64,000 nt of DNA from Phytohabitans flavus (GTDB lineage Bacteria; Actinomycetota; Actinomycetes; Mycobacteriales; Micromonosporaceae): NCBI RefSeq assembly GCF_011764545.1, contig NZ_AP022870.1, positions 7,880,001-7,944,000 of the forward strand, given 5' to 3'. How positions within the stretch are numbered: the stretch's first letter is position 1; each line of letters begins with the position of its first letter. Below the pieces are notes generated by a model that saw only the letters and a program-made list of their open reading frames with translations, made no database searches and was not told where the DNA came from. A program made the position numbers and the translations under genes. Positions 16,397 to 34,176 of this stretch are shown piece by piece.

Positions 16397-17860
16397 ATGG
16401 CGGTACGCGGATTCCCGTACACGGGACTGAAGGACTTTCTCGCGGCGCTTGAGCAGGCCGGTGAGCTGCGCCGGGTGTCCGTGCCGGTAGACCCGACGCT
16501 GGAGATCAGCGAGGTGGTCACGCGGACCGTCGCGGCCCGAGGCCCAGCGCTGCTCTTCGAGCGCCCCACCCGCGGCGAGATGCCGCTGGCGATCAACCTC
16601 TTCGGCACCCAGCGCCGCATGGCCATGGCGCTCGGTGTGGAGAGCGTCGACGAGATCGGCGACCGGATCGGCGACCTCGTCAAGCCAGAGCTGCCGGTGG
16701 GCTGGTCGGGCATCCGCGAGGGGCTCGGCAAGGTGATGCAGCTCAAGTCGGTACCGCCGAAGAAGGTCAAGACCGCGCCCTGCCAGCAGGTGATCTACCG
16801 CGACGGCCACGTCGACCTGGGCCGCCTGCCCGGCTTGCAGACGTGGCCGGACGACGGTGGGATCTTCCACAACTACGGGCTGACGCATACGAAGCACCCG
16901 GAGACCGGCAAGCGCAACCTCGGGCTGTACCGGCTCCAGCAGCACTCGCCCACCACGCTGGGCATGCACTGGCAGATCCACAAGGACTCCACGGCGCACC
17001 ACGCGGTGGCCGAGCGGCGGGGCGAGCGGCTGCCGGTGGCGATCGCGTTCGGCTGTGACCCCGTGGTGTCGTACAGTGCGTCCGCGCCCCTGCCAGGCGA
17101 CATCGACGAGTACCTGTTCGCAGGGTTCCTGCGCGGCGAGCGGGTGGAGATGGTCGACTGCCTGACCGTGCCGCTCCAGGTGCCGGCGCACGCCCAGGTG
17201 GTGCTGGAGGGGTATGTCGAGCCGGGCGAGCGCCTTCCCGAGGGGCCGTTCGGCGACCACACCGGCTTCTACACGCCGGTCGAGCCGTTTCCGGTGTTCC
17301 ACGTCGAGTGCATGACCACCCAGCGCGACCCGGTGTACCACTCGATCGTGACCTCGAAGCCGCCGCAGGAGGACGGGCCGATCGGGCACGCCACCGAGCG
17401 GATCTTCCTGCCGCTGCTCAGGCTCCTCATTCCGGACATCGTGGACTACTCGATGCCGGAGGCCGGCGTCTTCCACAACTGCGTGATCGTCTCGATCCGC
17501 AAGCGGTACCCGAAGCACGCGCAGAAGGTGATGTCCTCGATCTGGGGCGCCCACCTGCTCTCGCTGGCCAAGCTGATCGTGGTGGTAGACGACGACTGCG
17601 ACGTGCACGACTACAACGAGGTGGCGTTCCGGGCGTTCAGCAACGTCGACTACGACCACGACCTGCTGCTCACCCAGGGGCCGGTCGACCACCTGGACCA
17701 CGCGTCTTACCAGCAGTTCTGGGGTGGCAAGGCGGGCGTCGACGCGACTCGCAAGCTGCCGACCGAGGGGTACACGCGTGGCTGGCCGGACGAAGCGGTC
17801 ATGTCGCCGGAGGTCAAGGCGCTGGTCGACAAGCGCTGGAGAGAGTACGGGATCTCATGA
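16397..17860 (+). CDS. UbiD-family menaquinone biosynthesis decarboxylase
   Basis: A 487-residue UbiD-family prenylated-FMN decarboxylase of the kind called menaquinone biosynthesis decarboxylase, SCO4490 family (futalosine route). Family features include the N-terminal FPYTGLKDFL, a PEGPFGDHTGFY loop near residue 280 and the long beta-sheet core. It needs the cofactor made by the UbiX-type enzyme at 19707-20327. Its stop overlaps the start of the UbiA-like gene by ATGA, so the two are coupled. Role by family; the substrate is inferred to be a dihydroxynaphthoate-type acid. Confidence 0.9.
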   Translation: MAVRGFPYTGLKDFLAALEQAGELRRVSVPVDPTLEISEVVTRTVAARGPALLFERPTRGEMPLAINLFGTQRRMAMALGVESVDEIGDRIGDLVKPELPVGWSGIREGLGKVMQLKSVPPKKVKTAPCQQVIYRDGHVDLGRLPGLQTWPDDGGIFHNYGLTHTKHPETGKRNLGLYRLQQHSPTTLGMHWQIHKDSTAHHAVAERRGERLPVAIAFGCDPVVSYSASAPLPGDIDEYLFAGFLRGERVEMVDCLTVPLQVPAHAQVVLEGYVEPGERLPEGPFGDHTGFYTPVEPFPVFHVECMTTQRDPVYHSIVTSKPPQEDGPIGHATERIFLPLLRLLIPDIVDYSMPEAGVFHNCVIVSIRKRYPKHAQKVMSSIWGAHLLSLAKLIVVVDDDCDVHDYNEVAFRAFSNVDYDHDLLLTQGPVDHLDHASYQQFWGGKAGVDATRKLPTEGYTRGWPDEAVMSPEVKALVDKRWREYGIS

Positions 17861-18711
17861 GGGCGTTCCTCCGTCTTGTCACGATCGAGCACTCGGTCTT
17901 CGCGCTCCCGTTCGCCTTCCTCTCCGCGCTCGCCGCGATGCGCCACCTCGGCGGCGGCGTGCGCTGGGGCGATCTGGCGCTGATCACGATCGCGATGGTG
18001 GGCGCCCGCACGTTCGCGATGGCCGCCAACCGGATCATCGACCGGCACATCGACGCGCAGAATCCCCGTACCTCGAAGAGAGAGCTTGTCACCGGGGCCG
18101 TGCGGGTCAAGACGGCCTGGACCGGTGCGGCAGCCGCGCTCGTGGTGTTTGTCGGTGCCGCCGCCCTGCTCAACCCGCTCTGCCTCGTGCTCTCGCCGCT
18201 CGCGGTAGCGCCGCTGGTCGTGTACCCGTACGGCAAGCGGTTCACCGACTGGCCGCACGGGATCCTCGCGGTGGCGCAGGCGGTGGGTCCGGTCGGCGCG
18301 TGGCTGGCGGTCACGGGCACGTTCGAGGGCTCGTGGCCGGCGTGGGTGCTCGGCGCCGCCGTGGGGCTGTGGATCGGCGGGTTCGATCTGATCTACGCGT
18401 GCCAGGACGCCATCGTGGACCGGGAGATCGGCGTGCGCAGCGTCCCGGCTCGCTACGGGTTGCCGTTCGCGCTTGGCCTGTCCACGGTGGTGCACCTGGT
18501 GACGTTCGCGTTGTTCGTCTACTACGGCGAGCTCGTCGAACTCGGCTGGCTGTGGTGGGTCGGGCTGGCGCTGACCGCTGTCGCGTTCGGCTACCAGCAC
18601 GTGGTGGTCACGCCCACGGACCTCTCCCGGGTCAACCGCGCCTTCTTCACCGCCAACGGGTTCGTGGGCATCGCCCTGTTCGCATTCGCGCTACTGGACT
18701 ACGCGGCCTGA
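17857..18711 (+). CDS. UbiA-like polyprenyltransferase (menaquinone pathway)
   Basis: A 284-residue membrane prenyltransferase with about eight helices. Both Asp-rich motifs are visible: NRIIDRHIDAQNPRT (about 53-67) and DLIYACQDAIVDREIG (about 175-190). It would attach the polyprenyl tail to the naphthoate ring next to the UbiD and UbiX steps. ATG 17857 overlaps the decarboxylase stop. The terpene synthase gene converges on it, with stops 4 bp apart. Confidence 0.92.
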   Translation: MRAFLRLVTIEHSVFALPFAFLSALAAMRHLGGGVRWGDLALITIAMVGARTFAMAANRIIDRHIDAQNPRTSKRELVTGAVRVKTAWTGAAAALVVFVGAAALLNPLCLVLSPLAVAPLVVYPYGKRFTDWPHGILAVAQAVGPVGAWLAVTGTFEGSWPAWVLGAAVGLWIGGFDLIYACQDAIVDREIGVRSVPARYGLPFALGLSTVVHLVTFALFVYYGELVELGWLWWVGLALTAVAFGYQHVVVTPTDLSRVNRAFFTANGFVGIALFAFALLDYAA

Positions 18712-18715
18712 GCCG

Positions 18716-19645
18716 TCACTGGTAGCGCGCGCTCTCGTAGGACCAGTCCATCGTGCCCCGGATGGCGTACTCCACGCCGTCGAGGTACCTGCGGCCGGCG
18801 GCACCGTGCGGTGGCACCGCCGCCCGCAGGACCGGGAAGTGGCGCATCGTCCGCTGCCAGCGCGCCCGAGCCACCTCGGCGGCCTCCTCCAGCGATACGC
18901 CGCGCTCGGTGGCGATGGCCAGCACGAGGTTGTGCCCGCCGGCGGTGGCCGCGTCCCGCTCGAGTGAGAGCAGGTCGTTGAACCAGGAAAGCAGGTCGTT
19001 GCCGGTACGGCTGAACGCCCGCACGGCTGGGTGGTAATAGAACGATTCATTTACAAGGTCACCGTTGCCCGCGAAGTCGACGAGCGCGTGCGCCACGTAC
19101 GCCGCGGAGGTGGCCCGTCGCAGCTCGACGTACTCCTGCACGGCAGGTCGGTGTCCGCCCGCCTTGTTGCGCGCCTCGACCACCACCCCGTTGAGGTGAT
19201 GCTCGACGGTGGCGACGAAGCGGGTCCGCCACCTCGCCGGCATCCGGCGCTGGGGCTCGCGCCAGGCGTCGGCGAGCATGCTGCCCAGCGGCCCGGGCAG
19301 TGCGTCATCGGGGGATCCGGGCTCGCCGCGCAGCAGGGACAGCGCGCCGCCGACCAGAGCGCGTACCCGCTCCGGCTCCGGCACGCTTGCCCGGTCGCAC
19401 TCGTCGTCGATGAGGAAGAACCAGGTGAAGAGGGCGGAGAGCACGTGGAGGTCGCCTGGGCTCGCGTGGGGGTAGAGGCGGGCCGCGTACCGGGCGATTC
19501 GGCCTTCGGCGAGCCGGTCGGCGTACACGCCGGGCAGCCCATGGCTACGGGTCCATCCGTCGAGCCAGCCGTGGGCCTCTTCGGCATAAGCCGAGATAAC
19601 CGGATTAATCGGGCACTGGAGATCAAGGGAGATCGTCCGCAACAT
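18716..19645 (-). CDS. Class I terpene synthase
   Basis: A 309-residue all-helical terpene cyclase. The Asp-rich metal site is DDECD (D80, D81). The NSE triad is NDLLSLERD (N223, S227, D231), with Asp in place of the usual final Glu. The C-terminal Arg-Tyr pair is R307-Y308. It should ionise a linear prenyl diphosphate, probably farnesyl or geranyl diphosphate, to a cyclic terpene; the product cannot be read from sequence. The start at 19645 is fixed by a perfect AGGAGG five bases upstream; an ATG at 19672 lacks a ribosome site. The gene lies between the UbiA-like and UbiX-like genes on the opposite strand, 61 bp from the UbiX start. Confidence 0.92.
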   Translation of the reverse strand: MLRTISLDLQCPINPVISAYAEEAHGWLDGWTRSHGLPGVYADRLAEGRIARYAARLYPHASPGDLHVLSALFTWFFLIDDECDRASVPEPERVRALVGGALSLLRGEPGSPDDALPGPLGSMLADAWREPQRRMPARWRTRFVATVEHHLNGVVVEARNKAGGHRPAVQEYVELRRATSAAYVAHALVDFAGNGDLVNESFYYHPAVRAFSRTGNDLLSWFNDLLSLERDAATAGGHNLVLAIATERGVSLEEAAEVARARWQRTMRHFPVLRAAVPPHGAAGRRYLDGVEYAIRGTMDWSYESARYQ

Positions 19646-19650
19646 CGCAG

Positions 19651-19656
19651 CCTCCT
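19651..19656 (-). promoter_or_regulatory. Ribosome binding site that sets the terpene synthase start
   Basis: On the minus strand this reads AGGAGG, five bases before the ATG at 19645. It decides against the upstream in-frame ATG at 19672. Confidence 0.85.
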
Positions 19657-19706
19657 GCAGTCCCGCCAACATCAGCTTGGCCTGACGGTAGCTCTAGTCT
19701 GGATCT

Positions 19707-20327
19707 ATGCGGAATCCATGGATCGTCGGTGTTTCAGGTGCTTCAGGGACGCCGTACGCTGCGGCGCTCCTGCGTGGACTGTTCGACGCGGGTGAATCGG
19801 TTGATCTCGTGGTATCCCGCGCCGCCCGGCTGACGATCCTCGACGAGACCCGCGCACCCTTCCGCGACGCCCACTGGAAGGACGACCTGGCCGGGTGGCT
19901 CGGGCGTGACCTCGACGGTGCCGACGTGAGCTACTGGCCGGCCGGTGACCTGGCGGCCGGGCCGAGCAGCGGCTCGTACCTGGCGCGCGGCATGGTGGTC
20001 GTTCCGGCGAGCACCGCCGCGTGCGCCGGGATCGCGATCGGCCTCTCGAAGGACCTGCTCCAGCGGGCCGCCGAGGTAAACCTCAAGGAGCGCCGGCGGG
20101 TGGTGGTGGTGCCGCGCGAGACGCCGGTGACCCGTAGCCACCTGAGCCACCTCATCGCACTGCACGACGCCGGGGCCGTCGTGCTGCCGGCCAGTCCGGG
20201 CTTCTACGGTGCCGGCGCGTCCGCGACGGCGCAGCAGTTGGTGGACTTCGTCGCTGGCAAGGCGCTGGACGCGCTCGGTGTGCCGCACTCACTCTTCCGC
20301 CGCTGGCAGGGCCAGCTCGGGTCCTAA
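19707..20327 (+). CDS. ubiX: UbiX-family flavin prenyltransferase
   Basis: A 206-residue enzyme that prenylates FMN to the prFMN cofactor used by UbiD-family decarboxylases. The N-terminal GVSGASGTPYAAALLRGL is the family signature, and the SSGSYLARGMVVVPAS and ETPVTRSHLSHLIALHDAGA segments match the FMN and dimethylallyl phosphate sites. Its client is most likely the decarboxylase at 16397-17860. No clear Shine-Dalgarno precedes ATG 19707, so the mRNA may be leaderless. The terpene synthase reads away from it. Confidence 0.93.
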   Translation: MRNPWIVGVSGASGTPYAAALLRGLFDAGESVDLVVSRAARLTILDETRAPFRDAHWKDDLAGWLGRDLDGADVSYWPAGDLAAGPSSGSYLARGMVVVPASTAACAGIAIGLSKDLLQRAAEVNLKERRRVVVVPRETPVTRSHLSHLIALHDAGAVVLPASPGFYGAGASATAQQLVDFVAGKALDALGVPHSLFRRWQGQLGS

Positions 20328-20876: not shown

Positions 20877-21352
20877 GTGGACGACATAGATCTGAGGCTT
20901 GTGGAGCTATTGCGGGGGAATGCCCGGCTCTCGTATGCGGAGCTGGCCCGGCAGGTCGGCCTCTCCGCACCCGCAGTGCACGATCGCGTGGGCAAGCTGG
21001 AGAGCAGCGGGGTGATCCGCGGCTACCGCGCGGATGCTGAGCCGGGGGCGATCGGGCTTGGCGTGACGGCGCTGATCGGGCTGGTGCAGGACTCCGGCGG
21101 TGACACCGACGACGTGCTCGAGGCGCTGCGTGGGATGCCCGAGATCGAGTCGTGCTACTTCATGGCCGGGGTGGAGTCGTTCCTCCTCAAGGTGCGGGTG
21201 CCCACGATCCAGGAGCTGGAGACCGTGATCCTCCGGCTCAACCGGACCGCGGGGTGGCATCGACGCGTACCACCATCGCCCTCTCCACCAAATGGGAGGA
21301 GCGGCCGCAGCCCCTGTTACGGTCCGAGGATGGAACTCCTCGATCGGTGTAA
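20877..21352 (+). CDS. Lrp/AsnC-family transcriptional regulator (frameshifted near 21252)
   Basis: An N-terminal helix-turn-helix ([39 protein letters not shown]) is followed by an RAM ligand domain (VTALIGLV onward). After LNRTAG the frame is lost. Adding one G to the gggg run at 21252-21255 restores [15 protein letters not shown], the normal Lrp C-terminus, and a stop at 21350-21352 that overlaps the next gene by 23 bp (158 residues). As given, the frame instead runs straight into the Cds1-like gene. A sequencing error is likelier than a fusion. DecR-type Lrp proteins control cysteine desulfhydrases, which fits the neighbour. Start is GTG 20877. Confidence 0.85.
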
Positions 21353-22442
21353 TGACTCCGATCGCGCCTGGGTCACCGACGCGATCGCCAAGGTCGAGGC
21401 CGACGCCAACCGCTCCGCCGACACCCACCTGCTGGCGTTTCCGCTGCCTGTCGACTGGGGCATCGACCTGTACCTCAAGGACGAGTCCGTGCACCCCACG
21501 GGCTCGCTCAAGCACCGGCTCGCCCGCTCGCTCTTCCTCTACGGCCTCTGCAACGGCTGGATCGGGCCGAAGACGACGATCGTGGAGGCGTCGTCCGGCT
21601 CTACGGCCGTCTCCGAGGCGTACTTCGCCCGCATGCTCGGCCTCCCCTTCATCGCGGTGATGCCGGCCTCCACGTCGCAGGAGAAGGTGGCGCTGATCGA
21701 GTTTCAGGGCGGCAGGTGCCACCTCGTCGAGGACCCCGCCTCCGTCGTGGTCGAGGCCCGCTGGCTGGCCGAGGACACCGGCGGGCACTTCATGGACCAG
21801 TTCACGTACGCGGAGCGGGCCACCGACTGGCGGGGCAACAACAACATCGCCGAGTCGATCTACGCGCAGATGGCGCTGGAACGGCACGCCATCCCAGCCT
21901 GGGTCGTCGTCGGCGCCGGCACCGGGGGCACCAGCGCGACCATCGGCCGGTACGCCCGCTACTGCCGCTATCCCACCAAGCTGTGTGTGGTCGACCCGGA
22001 GAACTCGGCGTTTTACCCAGCCTGGCAGGCGGCCGACTGGAGCCACGAGACCGGGCTGGGCTCGCGCATCGAGGGGATCGGGCGGCCGAGGGTGGAGCCG
22101 TCGTTTCAGCCCACGCTTGTGGACCGCATGGTCCGGGTGCCGGACGCCGCCTCACTCGCCGCGATGCGCGCGGCCTCCGCGCTGCTCGGGCGCCGCGTCG
22201 GCGGATCCACCGGTACGAACCTGTGGGGCGCCTTCGGCCTGATCGCCGAGATGCGCGCGGCCGGCACACGTGGCTCGGTGGTGACCCTGCTCTGCGACGC
22301 CGGCGAGCGGTACGCCAACACGTACTACTCCGACGAATGGGTCGCAGCGCAGGGTCTCGACATGGCCCCTTACCTGGGGATGCTCGACGGCTTTCTGGCG
22401 ACCGGGATCATGCCTGCCGCTCTGCCAGCCCTGGGTACGTGA
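21330..22442 (+). CDS. cds1: PLP-dependent L-cysteine desulfhydrase, Cds1 type
   Basis: A 370-residue fold-type II PLP enzyme of the cysteine synthase family. The PLP lysine is in [13 protein letters not shown], with a [14 protein letters not shown] substrate loop and a [14 protein letters not shown] phosphate-binding loop. It closely resembles mycobacterial Cds1 (Rv3684), which breaks L-cysteine to pyruvate, ammonia and sulfide. The gene follows and slightly overlaps an Lrp regulator, as in cysteine-sensing desulfhydrase loci of other bacteria. ATG 21330 was chosen as the family start. Its end overlaps the convergent glycolipid-binding gene by 35 bp. Assignment to desulfhydrase and not synthase rests on the family match. 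Confidence 0.82.
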
Positions 22443-27202: not shown

Positions 27203-27303
27203 CGCCTCCCGCTCCCCCGCCGCACCGGACCGGTGCCGTCCGGACCGGAGCGTCCTTCAGCTTTTACCGTGCCACATCGCCCGGCGCCCGGACACCCGGA
27301 GTC

Positions 27304-27334
27304 GGGTTGTGGGCCGCTACCTGGCCCACAACCC
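27304..27334 (-). terminator. 12-bp perfect hairpin terminator after the NlpC/P60 gene
   Basis: GGGTTGTGGGCC (27304-27315) pairs perfectly with GGCCCACAACCC (27323-27334) around a seven-base loop, 42 bp past the minus-strand stop of the NlpC/P60 gene. Confidence 0.8.
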
Positions 27335-27375
27335 ACTTCCTACGGCCCAAGCCGTCCACTATGCGGACAGACCCG

Positions 27376-28969
27376 TCAGCCAGCCGTGCTCGCTCCGGCG
27401 GAAGAGTCGGACGAAGCGGGCACATCGGGCTGGGCCTCGGTAGTGGCCGGGGCGGCTTCGCTGGTGCTGGTCGCCGGGGGCTCGGACGACGGCTCCTCGG
27501 CCGGGGGACTCGGCGGGTCGGGCGTCGGCGTCGGCGTCGTCGGGGGCGGTTCCTCCGGCGTGGTGGGGGCGGGCTCTCCGGTGGGGTGGTCGGCTCCCCT
27601 GGCGTGGTCGGAGGCGGGGTCTCCGGCGGCGTGGTCGGCTCGCCCGGCGTGGTGGGCGGCGGCGTCGTCGGCGGCGTGGTGGTGGGCGGCGTCGTCGCGG
27701 GCGGGTTGGTGGTGGGCGGCGGCGTCGTGGACGGGGGGTTCGTCGGCGGCGCGGTGGGCGGCAGGTCCGGGGGAGCGGGGACCGCGCCGTAGATCCGGGT
27801 GGCCGCGAAGAGCCGCGAATACCAGACCGTGGAGACCTTGACCTTCTCCCGGCTGTTAGGCGCGTGGACCATCCGGCCCTCGCCGAGGTACATCCCCACG
27901 TGGTGGATGCCGCTCGCGGTGCCATTGGAGCTGAAGAAGACGAGGTCGCCGGGGAGCATCGCGCTGGTCGACACGCTCCGCGAGCGGGTCGCCGCGTACT
28001 GGTCGCGGGAGACCCGGGGCAGCTGGTAGCCGGCGTACCGGTACGCGGCCCACATCAGGCCGGAGCAGTCGTACGTATTCGGCCCCTCGGTCCCCCACAC
28101 GTACGGCTTGCCGAGCTCGCCGAGCGCGAAGTTGACCGCCTTGATCGCGCGCGGGTCGGCGGCCATCCCGGCGATGTTGTCGGCGTTGAGGAAGCCCTCG
28201 CTGAGCTTGGCCTCCTGCGCCTCGCGCTCCCGCTCGATAACCGCGAGCTGGGCCGAGTTGCGCTCCTTGACCTCCGCGAGAGCGGCTTCCTTGGTCTTGA
28301 GCGTCGCCTCGATCGTGTTGAACTGCCCGACGAGCGACTGCTCCTTGCCAAGCGCCGTGTTGTACGCCTCCTGGGCGACCCGCTCGGCGTCCTTGGCCCG
28401 GGCCACCTCGTGCTCGGCGGCGTCGCTCTTGGCCGTGGAGGACTCGCCGCGCTGGATCCGGCCCAGCTCGCTCAGCCCGTGGAGGTCGGAGCCGAACGCG
28501 CCCGGCGGCAGCTCGGCCGCCTCCTTGATCGCCTGGGCGGCAGCGCTCTCCGCGTCTGCCTCGGCCTCGGCCACCGCGACCCGCGCCTCGTCGAGCTGCC
28601 GGTGGGCGATCGCCAGGTCGGTGCGCGCCTGCGCTTGCTCTTCCCGCTTTTTCAGCAGGTCTTCGCTGAGCAGGCCGATCTCGGTCTCGGCGTTGTAGAT
28701 CTGGGCGGCCAGCGGGCCGGTGGCCGAGGGGGCGGCGTATACGTACTGCCAGGGGGCGGCACGTTGGCGCCGGGCAGCTGGAACGAGCCGGCAGGCAGGG
28801 GCCGAGCACCCGCGTCGGGGACCGTGCTGGGCGTGGGCTCGGCATAGGCCGGGGCCGCTAGCGCGGCAGCCGCAGCGGCGCCGAGCATGGCGGACCAGGC
28901 CAGTGGCCGGAGGACGGGACTGATGTACCCGTCCGGGCGCGCCTGATGCCTGCCCTTGCGCTTCGCCAT
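27376..28969 (-). CDS. Secreted NlpC/P60 peptidoglycan endopeptidase with coiled coil (two frameshifts)
   Basis: Read with two one-base repairs, this is an exported protein of about 531 residues. It has a basic start (MAKRKGRHQ), a signal peptide ending in APAYAEP, a helical coiled coil (about 90-260) and an NlpC/P60 domain (about 285-400). The catalytic Cys is in YDCSGLMWAAY and the His in GIHHVGMYLGEG. A Thr-Pro-rich tail of about 120 residues follows, as in RipA-like cell-separation hydrolases. Repairs fall in G runs at 28728-28732 (or 28752-28756) and 27565-27569; the second restores a clean tail ending at the TGA at 27376. ATG 28969 has GGGGAG upstream. It probably cleaves peptide stems at division. 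Confidence 0.85.
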
Positions 28970-29095
28970 ATGCACATCTCCCCGCCGCTCGCGTACCCAT
29001 TCTGTCCTACCGCACTGGAGCAACGATGTCGATTGGAGAGCAGGTAACAGGTACCTGAGAGCTCGTTTACGTAAGGGGTGACTAGGCTCAAAGCC

Positions 29096-29611
29096 ATGGA
29101 CGCGGCCCGCAGGCAAGAGATCGAAGAGCGTGTTTACGCAGGTGACCGGCTCACCGGCCCGGACAGCGAGGAATTGGCAGCCGCCAACGACCTCGCATGG
29201 CTCGGGCGGCTGGCCGACGACCGCCGCGCCGCCCACCACGGCGACCGGGTCACGTTCCTGATCGGCGATGGTCAGGTTTCCGACAGCGTGACCGCGTCGA
29301 CGGACCCGGCGCCCGCGCCGGCCGAGGTGCTCCGCCGATTCGCGGTCGCCCGCCTGGCGATCATCGGCCCCCGCCACGTGAGCTGCTCGACGGCCGACCA
29401 CACCACCGCGCTGGCCCAGCTCGCCCTCAACTTCGGCGTCGACGACATCATCGCCCCGCCCGACGCCGACCGCGACGAGATCCTCCACCTGATCTGGGAC
29501 GCCGGCTTCCGTCCGGTCGAGCGGGACGCGGAGGACAACGTCGTCCGGGAGTACGACCCGCCGGTGCCACTGGCCGAGCGCCGAGCCACCCCACAGCAGG
29601 TCTGGGCCTGA
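29096..29611 (+). CDS. Shrunken MqnE-like protein lacking the radical-SAM core
   Basis: A 171-residue protein. Its N-terminus (MDAARRQEIEERVYAGDRL, NDLAWLGRLAD) and C-terminus (ALAQLALNFGVDDI, IWDAGFRPVERDAEDNVVREYD) follow the two ends of aminofutalosine synthase MqnE, a radical-SAM enzyme of about 390 residues. The middle 200 or so residues are missing. At the spot where MqnE carries its CxxxCxxC cluster, a TAS tripeptide is kept but the cysteines are gone, so it cannot hold the 4Fe-4S cluster. It sits near a DUF4229 gene, which accompanies mqnE in Streptomyces as I recall. The frame is intact. The role is unknown; it could bind futalosine-type ligands or MqnE itself. Confidence 0.72.
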   Translation: MDAARRQEIEERVYAGDRLTGPDSEELAAANDLAWLGRLADDRRAAHHGDRVTFLIGDGQVSDSVTASTDPAPAPAEVLRRFAVARLAIIGPRHVSCSTADHTTALAQLALNFGVDDIIAPPDADRDEILHLIWDAGFRPVERDAEDNVVREYDPPVPLAERRATPQQVWA

Positions 29612-29651: not shown

Positions 29652-30074
29652 ATGACTGAGGCGCAGAGTGGCTTTCCGAAGCGCGACGCCGACGGGCGGA
29701 TCCTCGCCGTGACCGACCTGCTGGGCCTGGTCCTGGCCGGCCTGGTCATCGGCGTGCTCGCGCTGCTCGTCTTCGACGGCGTCTTCTCCCTGCTCGGCTT
29801 CGGCGACTTCGGCCGGGCCTCCGGCTGGCTGGCCGTGATCCTGCCGGCCTGGGTGTTCGTCGAGGAGTTCCGGGCCTGGTCGTACGGCGCCGCACGGGTG
29901 GTGGTCGCGCTGGTCGGCGCTGCCGTCTCGATCACCCTGGGGCTGCTGGTCGCCGGCCTGCTCAACGAGGCGGCGCCGCTCTGGTCCGGCTCGGCCGCCG
30001 CGGCGGCGTTCGCGCTGGCGTACTCGCTGATCTGGTTCTACGGCATCCGGTGGCTGGACCACCGGACCGGGTAG
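29652..30074 (+). CDS. Small four-helix membrane protein of unknown function
   Basis: A 140-residue protein with four hydrophobic segments (about 24-45, 57-70, 80-102 and 112-130) and a short charged N-terminus. No catalytic motif is visible and I do not recognise the family. It follows the MqnE-like gene by 40 bp and precedes the DUF4229 gene by 9 bp, so the three probably share a transcript. Confidence 0.75.
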   Translation: MTEAQSGFPKRDADGRILAVTDLLGLVLAGLVIGVLALLVFDGVFSLLGFGDFGRASGWLAVILPAWVFVEEFRAWSYGAARVVVALVGAAVSITLGLLVAGLLNEAAPLWSGSAAAAAFALAYSLIWFYGIRWLDHRTG

Positions 30075-30083
30075 GGGATGGGC

Positions 30084-30347
30084 ATGAGCCCGGTAATCAA
30101 GTACACCCTGGCTCGCGTCGGACTCTTCGCGGCTGTCTTCGCCGCGCTGTTTCCGATCGACCTCGACATCTTCATCAAGCTGGCGATCGCGCTGATCGCG
30201 TCGGCCGGTTTCTCGTTCATCCTGCTACGCGGCCTGCGTGACCAGGTGGCCAACCAGATGGCCGCGTCGGCCGAGCGGCGGCAGGCGGAGAAGGACCGCC
30301 TGCGCGCCGCCCTGGCAGGAGACGACGAGCCGAAGCGCGAGGACTAG
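30084..30347 (+). CDS. DUF4229 small membrane protein
   Basis: An 87-residue protein with two hydrophobic helices (about 7-25 and 30-50) and a charged tail (SAERRQAEKDRLRAAL). This matches the actinobacterial DUF4229 family, which is often encoded next to mqnE. ATG 30084 is preceded by AGGGG at 6 nt; the in-frame ATG at 30078 is too close to that site. Function unknown. Its stop overlaps the convergent oxidoreductase gene by 4 bp. Confidence 0.78.
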   Translation: MSPVIKYTLARVGLFAAVFAALFPIDLDIFIKLAIALIASAGFSFILLRGLRDQVANQMAASAERRQAEKDRLRAALAGDDEPKRED

Positions 30348-32320: not shown

Positions 32321-34176
32321 TTGTCCATTCGTCTGAGGCCGCGCCGCGCGGTCATCCTCGTCGCCGCCCTCGCGGCCGGGCTGTTGCTGGTCACCAGCAG
32401 CCCTGGCAGCGCCAAGCCAGATCCCGGCCCGAAGACGGCCGAGGTCGCCGCGCAGTACACGGTGATCGGGCCGCGCACGTTCGCGGACCGTGACGCCATC
32501 GCCCGTACCGGCGCGGCCATCGACTACATCGAGCACGGAAAGATCTACGTCTCGGCGATCCAGTCCGAGGTGCTCGCCATCCGCAAGCTCGGCTTCCAGG
32601 TGGTGCCGGTACCGGTCCCCGCACCCGGCGGCGTGACCACGTTCGACTTCCCGCCGGCCGACTCGGCGTACCACAACTACGCCGAGCTCAACGCGGTGGT
32701 CAACCAGGTGGTGGCCGATCACCCGTCGATCGCCCGCCGGATCTCGCTCGGCAACTCGTACGAGGGCCGCGACATCATGGCCGTCAAGATCTCCGACAAC
32801 GTCGCCACCGACGAGTCGGAGCCGGAGATCCTCTTCAACTCGCAGCAGCACGCCCGCGAGCACCTGACCGTGGAGATGGCGATCTACCTGCTCAACCTCT
32901 TCACGGACAGCTACGGCTCGGACTCGCGGATCACCAACATCGTCAACGGCCGCGAGATCTGGATCGTGCCGACGGTCAACCCGGATGGCAGCGAGTACGA
33001 CGTCGCCACCGGCGCGTACCGCTCCTGGCGCAAGAACCGCCAGCCGAACTCCGGCTCGTCCAACGTGGGCACCGACCTCAACCGCAACTGGTCCTACAAC
33101 TGGGGCTGCTGCGGCGGCTCGTCCGGCACGACCAGCTCCGAGACGTACCGCGGCCCGTCTGCCTTCTCCGCGCCGGAGACCCAGCGGCTGCGCGACTTCG
33201 TCAACAGCCGGGTGGTCGGCGGCGTGCAGCAGATCAAGGCCAACATCGACTTCCACACGTACTCGCAGCTCGTGCTCTGGCCCTTCGGCTACACGACGGC
33301 GAACACCGCGCCCGGGCTCAACGCCGACCAGGAAGCGGTCTTCCGCACGATCGGGCAGCAGATGGCGGCCACCAACGGGTACACGCCGGAGCAGTCCTCT
33401 GACCTCTACATCACCGACGGCGACAGCATCGACTGGATGTGGGGCAGCACGGCATTTGGGCGTACACCTTCGAGATGTACCCCGGCTCGTCCGGTGGCGG
33501 CGGCTTCTACCCGCCCGACGAGGTCATCCCCGCGCAGACCTCGCGCAACCGCGAGGCGGTGCTGATCCTCAGTGAGTACGCCGACTGCCCGTACCGCGCG
33601 ACCGGCCAGCAGGCCCAGTACTGCGGCACCGGCGGCGGCACGACGGTGTGGTCGGACACGTTCGAGACCAACACCGGGTGGACGGTCAACCCGTCTGGCA
33701 CCGACACGGCGACGCTGGGCCAGTGGCAGCGGGGCACCGCCCAGGCCACCAACTCCAGCGGCGCGAAGCAGCTCGTCCCGTTCGCCGGCAGCAATGACCT
33801 GGTGACCGGCCCGCTGGCCGGTGCGAGCGCTGGCGACCATGACATCGACGGTGGGCTGACCAGCGTCCGTTCGCCCGCGGTGACGCTCCCGTCGAGCGGC
33901 ACGCTGTCCATGTCGTTCGCCTGGTACCTGGCGCACGGCACGAACGCCTCGTCCGCCGACTTCCTGCGCGTCAGCGTGGTCCACGCCGGCGGCACGACGG
34001 CGGTCCTCACCCAAGCGGGCGCGGCGAGCAACCGCAACGCCTCGTGGGCGACGGCGACGGCGAACCTGACCCCGTACGCCGGGCAGTCGATCCGCATCCT
34101 GATCGAGGCAACTGACGCCTCCGGCGCCAGCCTGGTCGAGGCCGCGGTCGACAACGTGACGATCACCTCCGCGTAA
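32321..34176 (+). CDS. Secreted M14 zinc carboxypeptidase with C-terminal beta-sandwich (frameshifted near 33441)
   Basis: About 618 residues once repaired. A signal peptide ([18 protein letters not shown]) is followed by a propeptide-like region and the M14 domain (about 110-430). Zinc ligands are in QQHAREHL (HxxE) and DFHTYSQL, the substrate-binding DLNRNW segment is present, and the catalytic Glu is in YTFEMYP. That Glu falls after a frame break that one extra G at 33441-33444 repairs ([17 protein letters not shown]). Residues 450-618 form a Ser/Thr-rich jelly-roll-like domain. It should trim C-terminal residues from extracellular peptides. Start is TTG 32321. Confidence 0.88.

Follow-up and report, generated by a model that had tools for sequence, protein, structure and literature searches.

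The gene at 29096..29611 on the forward strand of the window, by which we mean the whole 64,000-nucleotide stretch of the Phytohabitans flavus genome analyzed here, codes for a 171-aa derivative of the aminofutalosine synthase MqnE that has lost the core of the enzyme (hereinafter mini-MqnE), as indicated by profile matches, alignment and structural modeling. The protein is most likely non-catalytic now, with aminofutalosine coming from an as yet unrecognised enzyme. We give an even chance to the reading that the gene is an mqnE with its radical-SAM core excised, i.e., that it encodes a pseudoenzyme, and that a replacement synthase exists alongside a shell kept as a partner.

The open frame of mini-mqnE runs from an ATG at 29096 to a stop codon at 29609–29611. 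The NCBIfam profile for MqnE, TIGR03700, matches the protein in two stretches (E=4e-14; 52 bits, below the curated cut-off of 434.55 bits), the best of which places residues 70–146 on positions 256–347 of the 351-position profile; the NCBIfam MqnC and CofH profiles match more weakly, and in a phmmer search of the PDB the Pedobacter MqnE is the sole meaningful match. With TIGR03700 matching both ends, the N- and C-terminal MqnE signatures recognized in the original prediction are real. Pfam gives no match of any kind at E-values up to 1, and the radical-SAM domain (PF04055) is therefore absent. In alignment to full-length MqnE, the N-terminal 56 residues and the C-terminal ~95 residues are joined by a short linker and the core is gone, which bears out the predicted loss of both the barrel core and the CxxxCxxC motif of the [4Fe-4S] cluster, the latter missing from the protein and its genus. 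The resulting layout comprises the N-terminal helices and first strand (residues 1–56), a variable linker (~57–74), the C-terminal part (75–152) and an RRxxPQxVW tail (162–171). The TAS tripeptide, earlier read as a relic of the cysteine motif, is instead a chance string in the variable linker: it is missing from the other members of the genus, and the corresponding residues of full-length MqnE in the Micromonosporaceae are CSASC.

Mini-MqnE shares with MqnE proper (TIGR03700; SCO4494 type; PDB 6xi9, 6xig) the orthologous locus, the N-terminal helices, the first strand, the C-terminal part and the tail, but lacks the CxxxCxxC motif, the radical-SAM core and conserved core and loop residues, being 171 as against ~389 residues long. 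Its C-terminal part corresponds to the CofH_C domain (PF19288; the C-terminal region of CofH and MqnC), which 14 of 24 aligned relatives match; however, the window protein itself lies below threshold, and mini-MqnE has an N-terminal segment in addition. It is also homologous to MqnC, the cyclic dehypoxanthinyl futalosine synthase (a 31-bit match), but the genome carries an intact, separate MqnC gene.

Mini-mqnE sits at the position held by a full-length mqnE with the same neighbors in another genome (G189), and is the positional orthologue of mqnE, with no second copy. Upstream lies a divergent NlpC/P60 cell-wall hydrolase gene (27264..29000, −; PF00877, E=1e-27), which neighbors mqnE in both mini and full-length genomes, and downstream two conserved neighbors, encoding a 140-aa membrane protein (29652..30074, +) and a DUF4229 protein (30078..30347, +; PF14012, E=8e-14), the latter confirming the DUF4229 gene reported earlier. 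The order NlpC/P60–mqnE–140-aa protein–DUF4229 recurs in G057, G140, G050 and G004, and partly in G035. Hence, of the earlier description of mini-mqnE as standing beside the menaquinone locus, the proximity to mqn genes holds, but the gene does not accompany a full-length mqnE: it is the mqnE locus itself. An arylamine N-acetyltransferase-like gene, recognized by sequence appearance, adjoins mini-mqnE in G050 and G035, representing two genera (L113:11640-12206 and L120:10153-10875). The NlpC/P60 gene is an intact 509-aa ORF in G057 and is found at the same position in G140, G050, G004 and G189; its reading frame at 27264–29000 is probably broken in the present assembly. Genes at 32321–34176 and 20877–22442 of the window look broken or fused as well. 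In G057 the genes of these three regions (NlpC/P60, an M14 peptidase, and an Lrp regulator with a PLP enzyme) form single ORFs or have frames of their own, which suggests that the present assembly has frameshift errors; a further split gene, encoding a radical-SAM protein, lies at G000 6307039-6307538.

The short form is the only form in six of six sampled genomes of the genus, namely the window genome and five others, the latter supplying the same-size homologues from other Micromonosporaceae. Across the family, MqnE scores over the cut-off in 308 of 348 genomes; in the remaining 40, which retain MqnC, the best match is at the level of MqnC or of a diverged MqnE. A Streptomyces-like genome is in the same condition. 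We read the mqnE locus for 21 genomes of the 40 and, in addition, for Catenuloplanes japonicus; some of the other below-cut-off genomes may be assembly gaps (e.g., G649, in 590 contigs). Among named strains, short forms are carried by, for example, Paractinoplanes aksuensis, P. bogorensis, Actinoplanes sp. M2I2 and Micromonospora sp. HM5-17. Class-wide (395 genomes), few genomes outside the family have an MqnC-level best match without a full MqnE (G267, G521 and G346), and a further case (G582) resembles an assembly break. Six genomes (G044, G106, G114, G665, G716 and G215) each code for two full-length MqnE proteins over the cut-off.

The MqnE core has been lost repeatedly, in independent lineages. 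Mapped onto a tree of MqnC, the mini state requires eight changes (7–9 in bootstraps), at least four of which are forced by well-supported branches, and the lengths and breakpoints of the short forms vary between lineages. Several stages are represented: a full-length, diverged MqnE that retains the cysteine motif (G104), a full-length version from which the motif is gone (G119), a shorter one missing the region around it (G092), a 331-aa copy without the cysteine region and some other segments (G267), and a copy in which the CxxxCxxC string is present and most of the core is missing (G066). This shortening series runs down to 171 residues.

Structure prediction indicates that the short forms adopt the fold of the corresponding MqnE segments. 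The AlphaFold model of the window protein (pLDDT 87, from an input alignment that included full-length relatives) overlays 155 residues of MqnE 6xi9 with Z 14.8 at 2.2 Å, and that of a 211-aa form from another genus (pLDDT 90, from short forms only) overlays 195 residues with Z 19.9 at 2.5 Å; the many further radical-SAM proteins that VIA-align lists have a lower Z, in line with their common fold. In a comparison of 66 full-length with 17 short proteins, 40 positions conserved in the full-length set, including R162, R163, P166 and Q167, persist in no less than 88% of the 17 minis, and 123 conserved positions, all three cysteines among them, are deleted. Others, such as K300, F302 and W303 of full-length MqnE, are substituted in the minis. 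Most minis have thus lost, by deletion or otherwise, residues conserved around the core of the full-length enzyme, namely these three and the YGHIEEP and FIPLRYQHDF motifs, as well as the conserved DGSVVEYKITHDADSYGTP loop within the C-terminal part. The RRxxPQ tail is invariant in 70 of 70 family sequences and has low confidence in the predicted structure, which would fit a docking segment.

Purifying selection on the short forms is relaxed but real. Nei–Gojobori dN/dS values, which are rough owing to saturation and extreme GC, are 0.15–0.36 for mini-mqnE when the four closest members of the genus are compared, rising to as much as 0.6 in distant pairs, 0.26–0.61 for short mqnE of other lineages, 0.05–0.15 for full-length MqnE, and 0.05–0.18 for MqnA and MqnC in the mini genomes, both of which are therefore still strongly constrained. 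The ratio is below 1 in every short-form pair and all mini genes read are in frame. Together, homology, synteny, selection and the same-size homologues across the genus support the view that a dead mini-MqnE is maintained in frame.

Active MqnE is the missing member of the futalosine pathway in this genome. In the window, mqnL (menaquinone biosynthesis decarboxylase, UbiD family; 16397..17860, +; TIGR03701, 625 bits, cut-off 496), mqnP (menaquinone prenyltransferase, UbiA family; 17857..18711, +; NF041584, 477 bits, cut-off 420) and a ubiX-type flavin prenyltransferase gene (19707..20327, +; TIGR00421, 143 bits, cut-off 109) lie upstream of mini-mqnE, with a terpene synthase family 2 gene (18716–19672, −) between mqnP and ubiX. 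Downstream, mqnA, mqnC and menG follow at a distance of ~40 kb, and mqnD and mqnB at ~135 kb. Thus, MqnA, B, C, D, L, P, UbiX and MenG are all present, several of them over curated cut-offs. A second, full-length MqnE can be rejected, as a search of the whole closed, single-contig 9.6-Mb genome found no other copy. A switch to the classical Men pathway can likewise be rejected: MenD is not over the cut-off in any of 23 genomes, the best match in this one reaching 79 bits against a cut-off of 244. The family-level description gives menaquinones of the MK-9 and MK-10 series (PMC6113628).

The strong constraint on MqnA and MqnC, together with the presence of MqnB, the futalosine hydrolase, suggests that the route still passes through futalosine or aminofutalosine, and with no active MqnE the catalytic step must lie elsewhere if menaquinone is made by the futalosine route. 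The radical-SAM proteins shared by five mini genomes (G000, G004, G070, G140 and G267) belong to housekeeping families only, as judged from a grouping by simple gene calls that a badly called gene could escape; hence, a radical-SAM enzyme common to these genomes is unlikely to be the replacement. In the regions compared around the mqn genes, no extra gene is present in every mini genome but absent from G189. Three families, without a counterpart in G189, occur in three of the mini genomes, and two of these are respiratory-complex genes at the edge of the compared regions. We propose that the pathway still runs, with aminofutalosine or futalosine made outside the MqnE/CofH family by an enzyme that would also not be a shared, non-housekeeping radical-SAM protein. 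Preservation of the leftover MqnE shell is best explained by a non-catalytic role in binding or scaffolding, in which the shell and the invariant tail would most likely dock a partner from the pathway.

The main rival to such a non-catalytic partner is slow decay, in which MqnE became redundant after takeover by another enzyme and in-frame deletions are shortening a roleless gene. We regard this as rather unlikely, but the constraint on mini-MqnE is clearly weaker than that on the active enzyme and slow decay also fits: dN/dS exceeds that of full-length MqnE, length and divergence form a graded series, and the linkers vary freely. Against simple erosion, the frames are uniformly open with dN/dS below 1 in each pair, independent lineages have retained an identical set of 40 positions as well as the RRxxPQ tail, and mini-mqnE is retained in C. 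japonicus, where the 140-aa neighbor was not called.

A split enzyme is a considerably more doubtful proposition. Here mini-MqnE would work with MqnC, which would provide the radical-SAM chemistry for both steps; MqnC is indeed homologous to MqnE, is found in every mini genome and is in some of them (e.g., G004) the sole other intact member of the family. However, MqnC is highly constrained in the mini genomes, and mini-MqnE is without the conserved core and C-terminal loop residues. Further, nine MqnC positions invariant in full-length genomes change in at least two mini lineages as compared to five in the reverse control, the changes being mostly conservative, and for want of a convergent signature in the mini lineages a bifunctional MqnC was rejected. 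Marginally less credible still, and quite improbable in our estimate, is the ligand-binding or regulatory derivative suggested in the original prediction, which would sense a pathway intermediate. The location at the mqn locus and the partly kept MqnE fold are consistent with it, but most short forms have lost YGHIEEP, FIPLRYQHDF, K300/F302/W303 and the DGSVVEYKITHDADSYGTP loop, retaining the structural set and the tail, and searches of Pfam and NCBIfam found no DNA-binding or other effector domain in the 171-aa protein. Finally, a local deletion or assembly artefact, conceivable given that other frameshifts are probably present in this assembly, is refuted by the orthologues of equal size that the other five genomes of the genus carry, with comparable short forms in named strains, and can be dismissed for practical purposes.

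Some further observations concern CofH and genes of F420 biosynthesis. CofH relatives without the cysteine motif occur in G140 (L246:1240-2184, −) and G076 (L251:1059-2045, +), scoring 286 and 294 bits to TIGR03551 and adjoining an FAD monooxygenase gene; CofD is present in both genomes, an intact CofH was not found in either, and G140 has a stand-alone CofG (L245:734-1951). In G004, G066, G070 and G050 CofD is over the cut-off and no FbiC, CofG or CofH matches were seen; none was seen for FbiC in G046, from the genus of G004.

Pseudoenzymes in general have lost catalytic residues but keep their fold and stay under selection; mini-MqnE differs in that the core has been removed repeatedly with the rest of the pathway intact. 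The literature searched yielded no report of MqnE core removal or of futalosine-pathway bacteria without MqnE. A survey scoring the pathway by a quorum of genes has been published (PMC13386864), and scoring of this type could overlook the MqnE gap. The MqnE variants described here also make up a graded set that leads from the active enzyme to the pseudoenzyme. MqnE catalyzes an unusual radical addition in menaquinone biosynthesis, and the repeated loss of its core in the presence of an intact pathway points to a second route to aminofutalosine, for the finding of which the mini strains constitute a natural set. It is possible, if somewhat doubtful, that several actinobacterial lineages harbor an undiscovered class of aminofutalosine- or futalosine-forming enzyme unrelated to MqnE, with the core-less shell as its non-catalytic partner.
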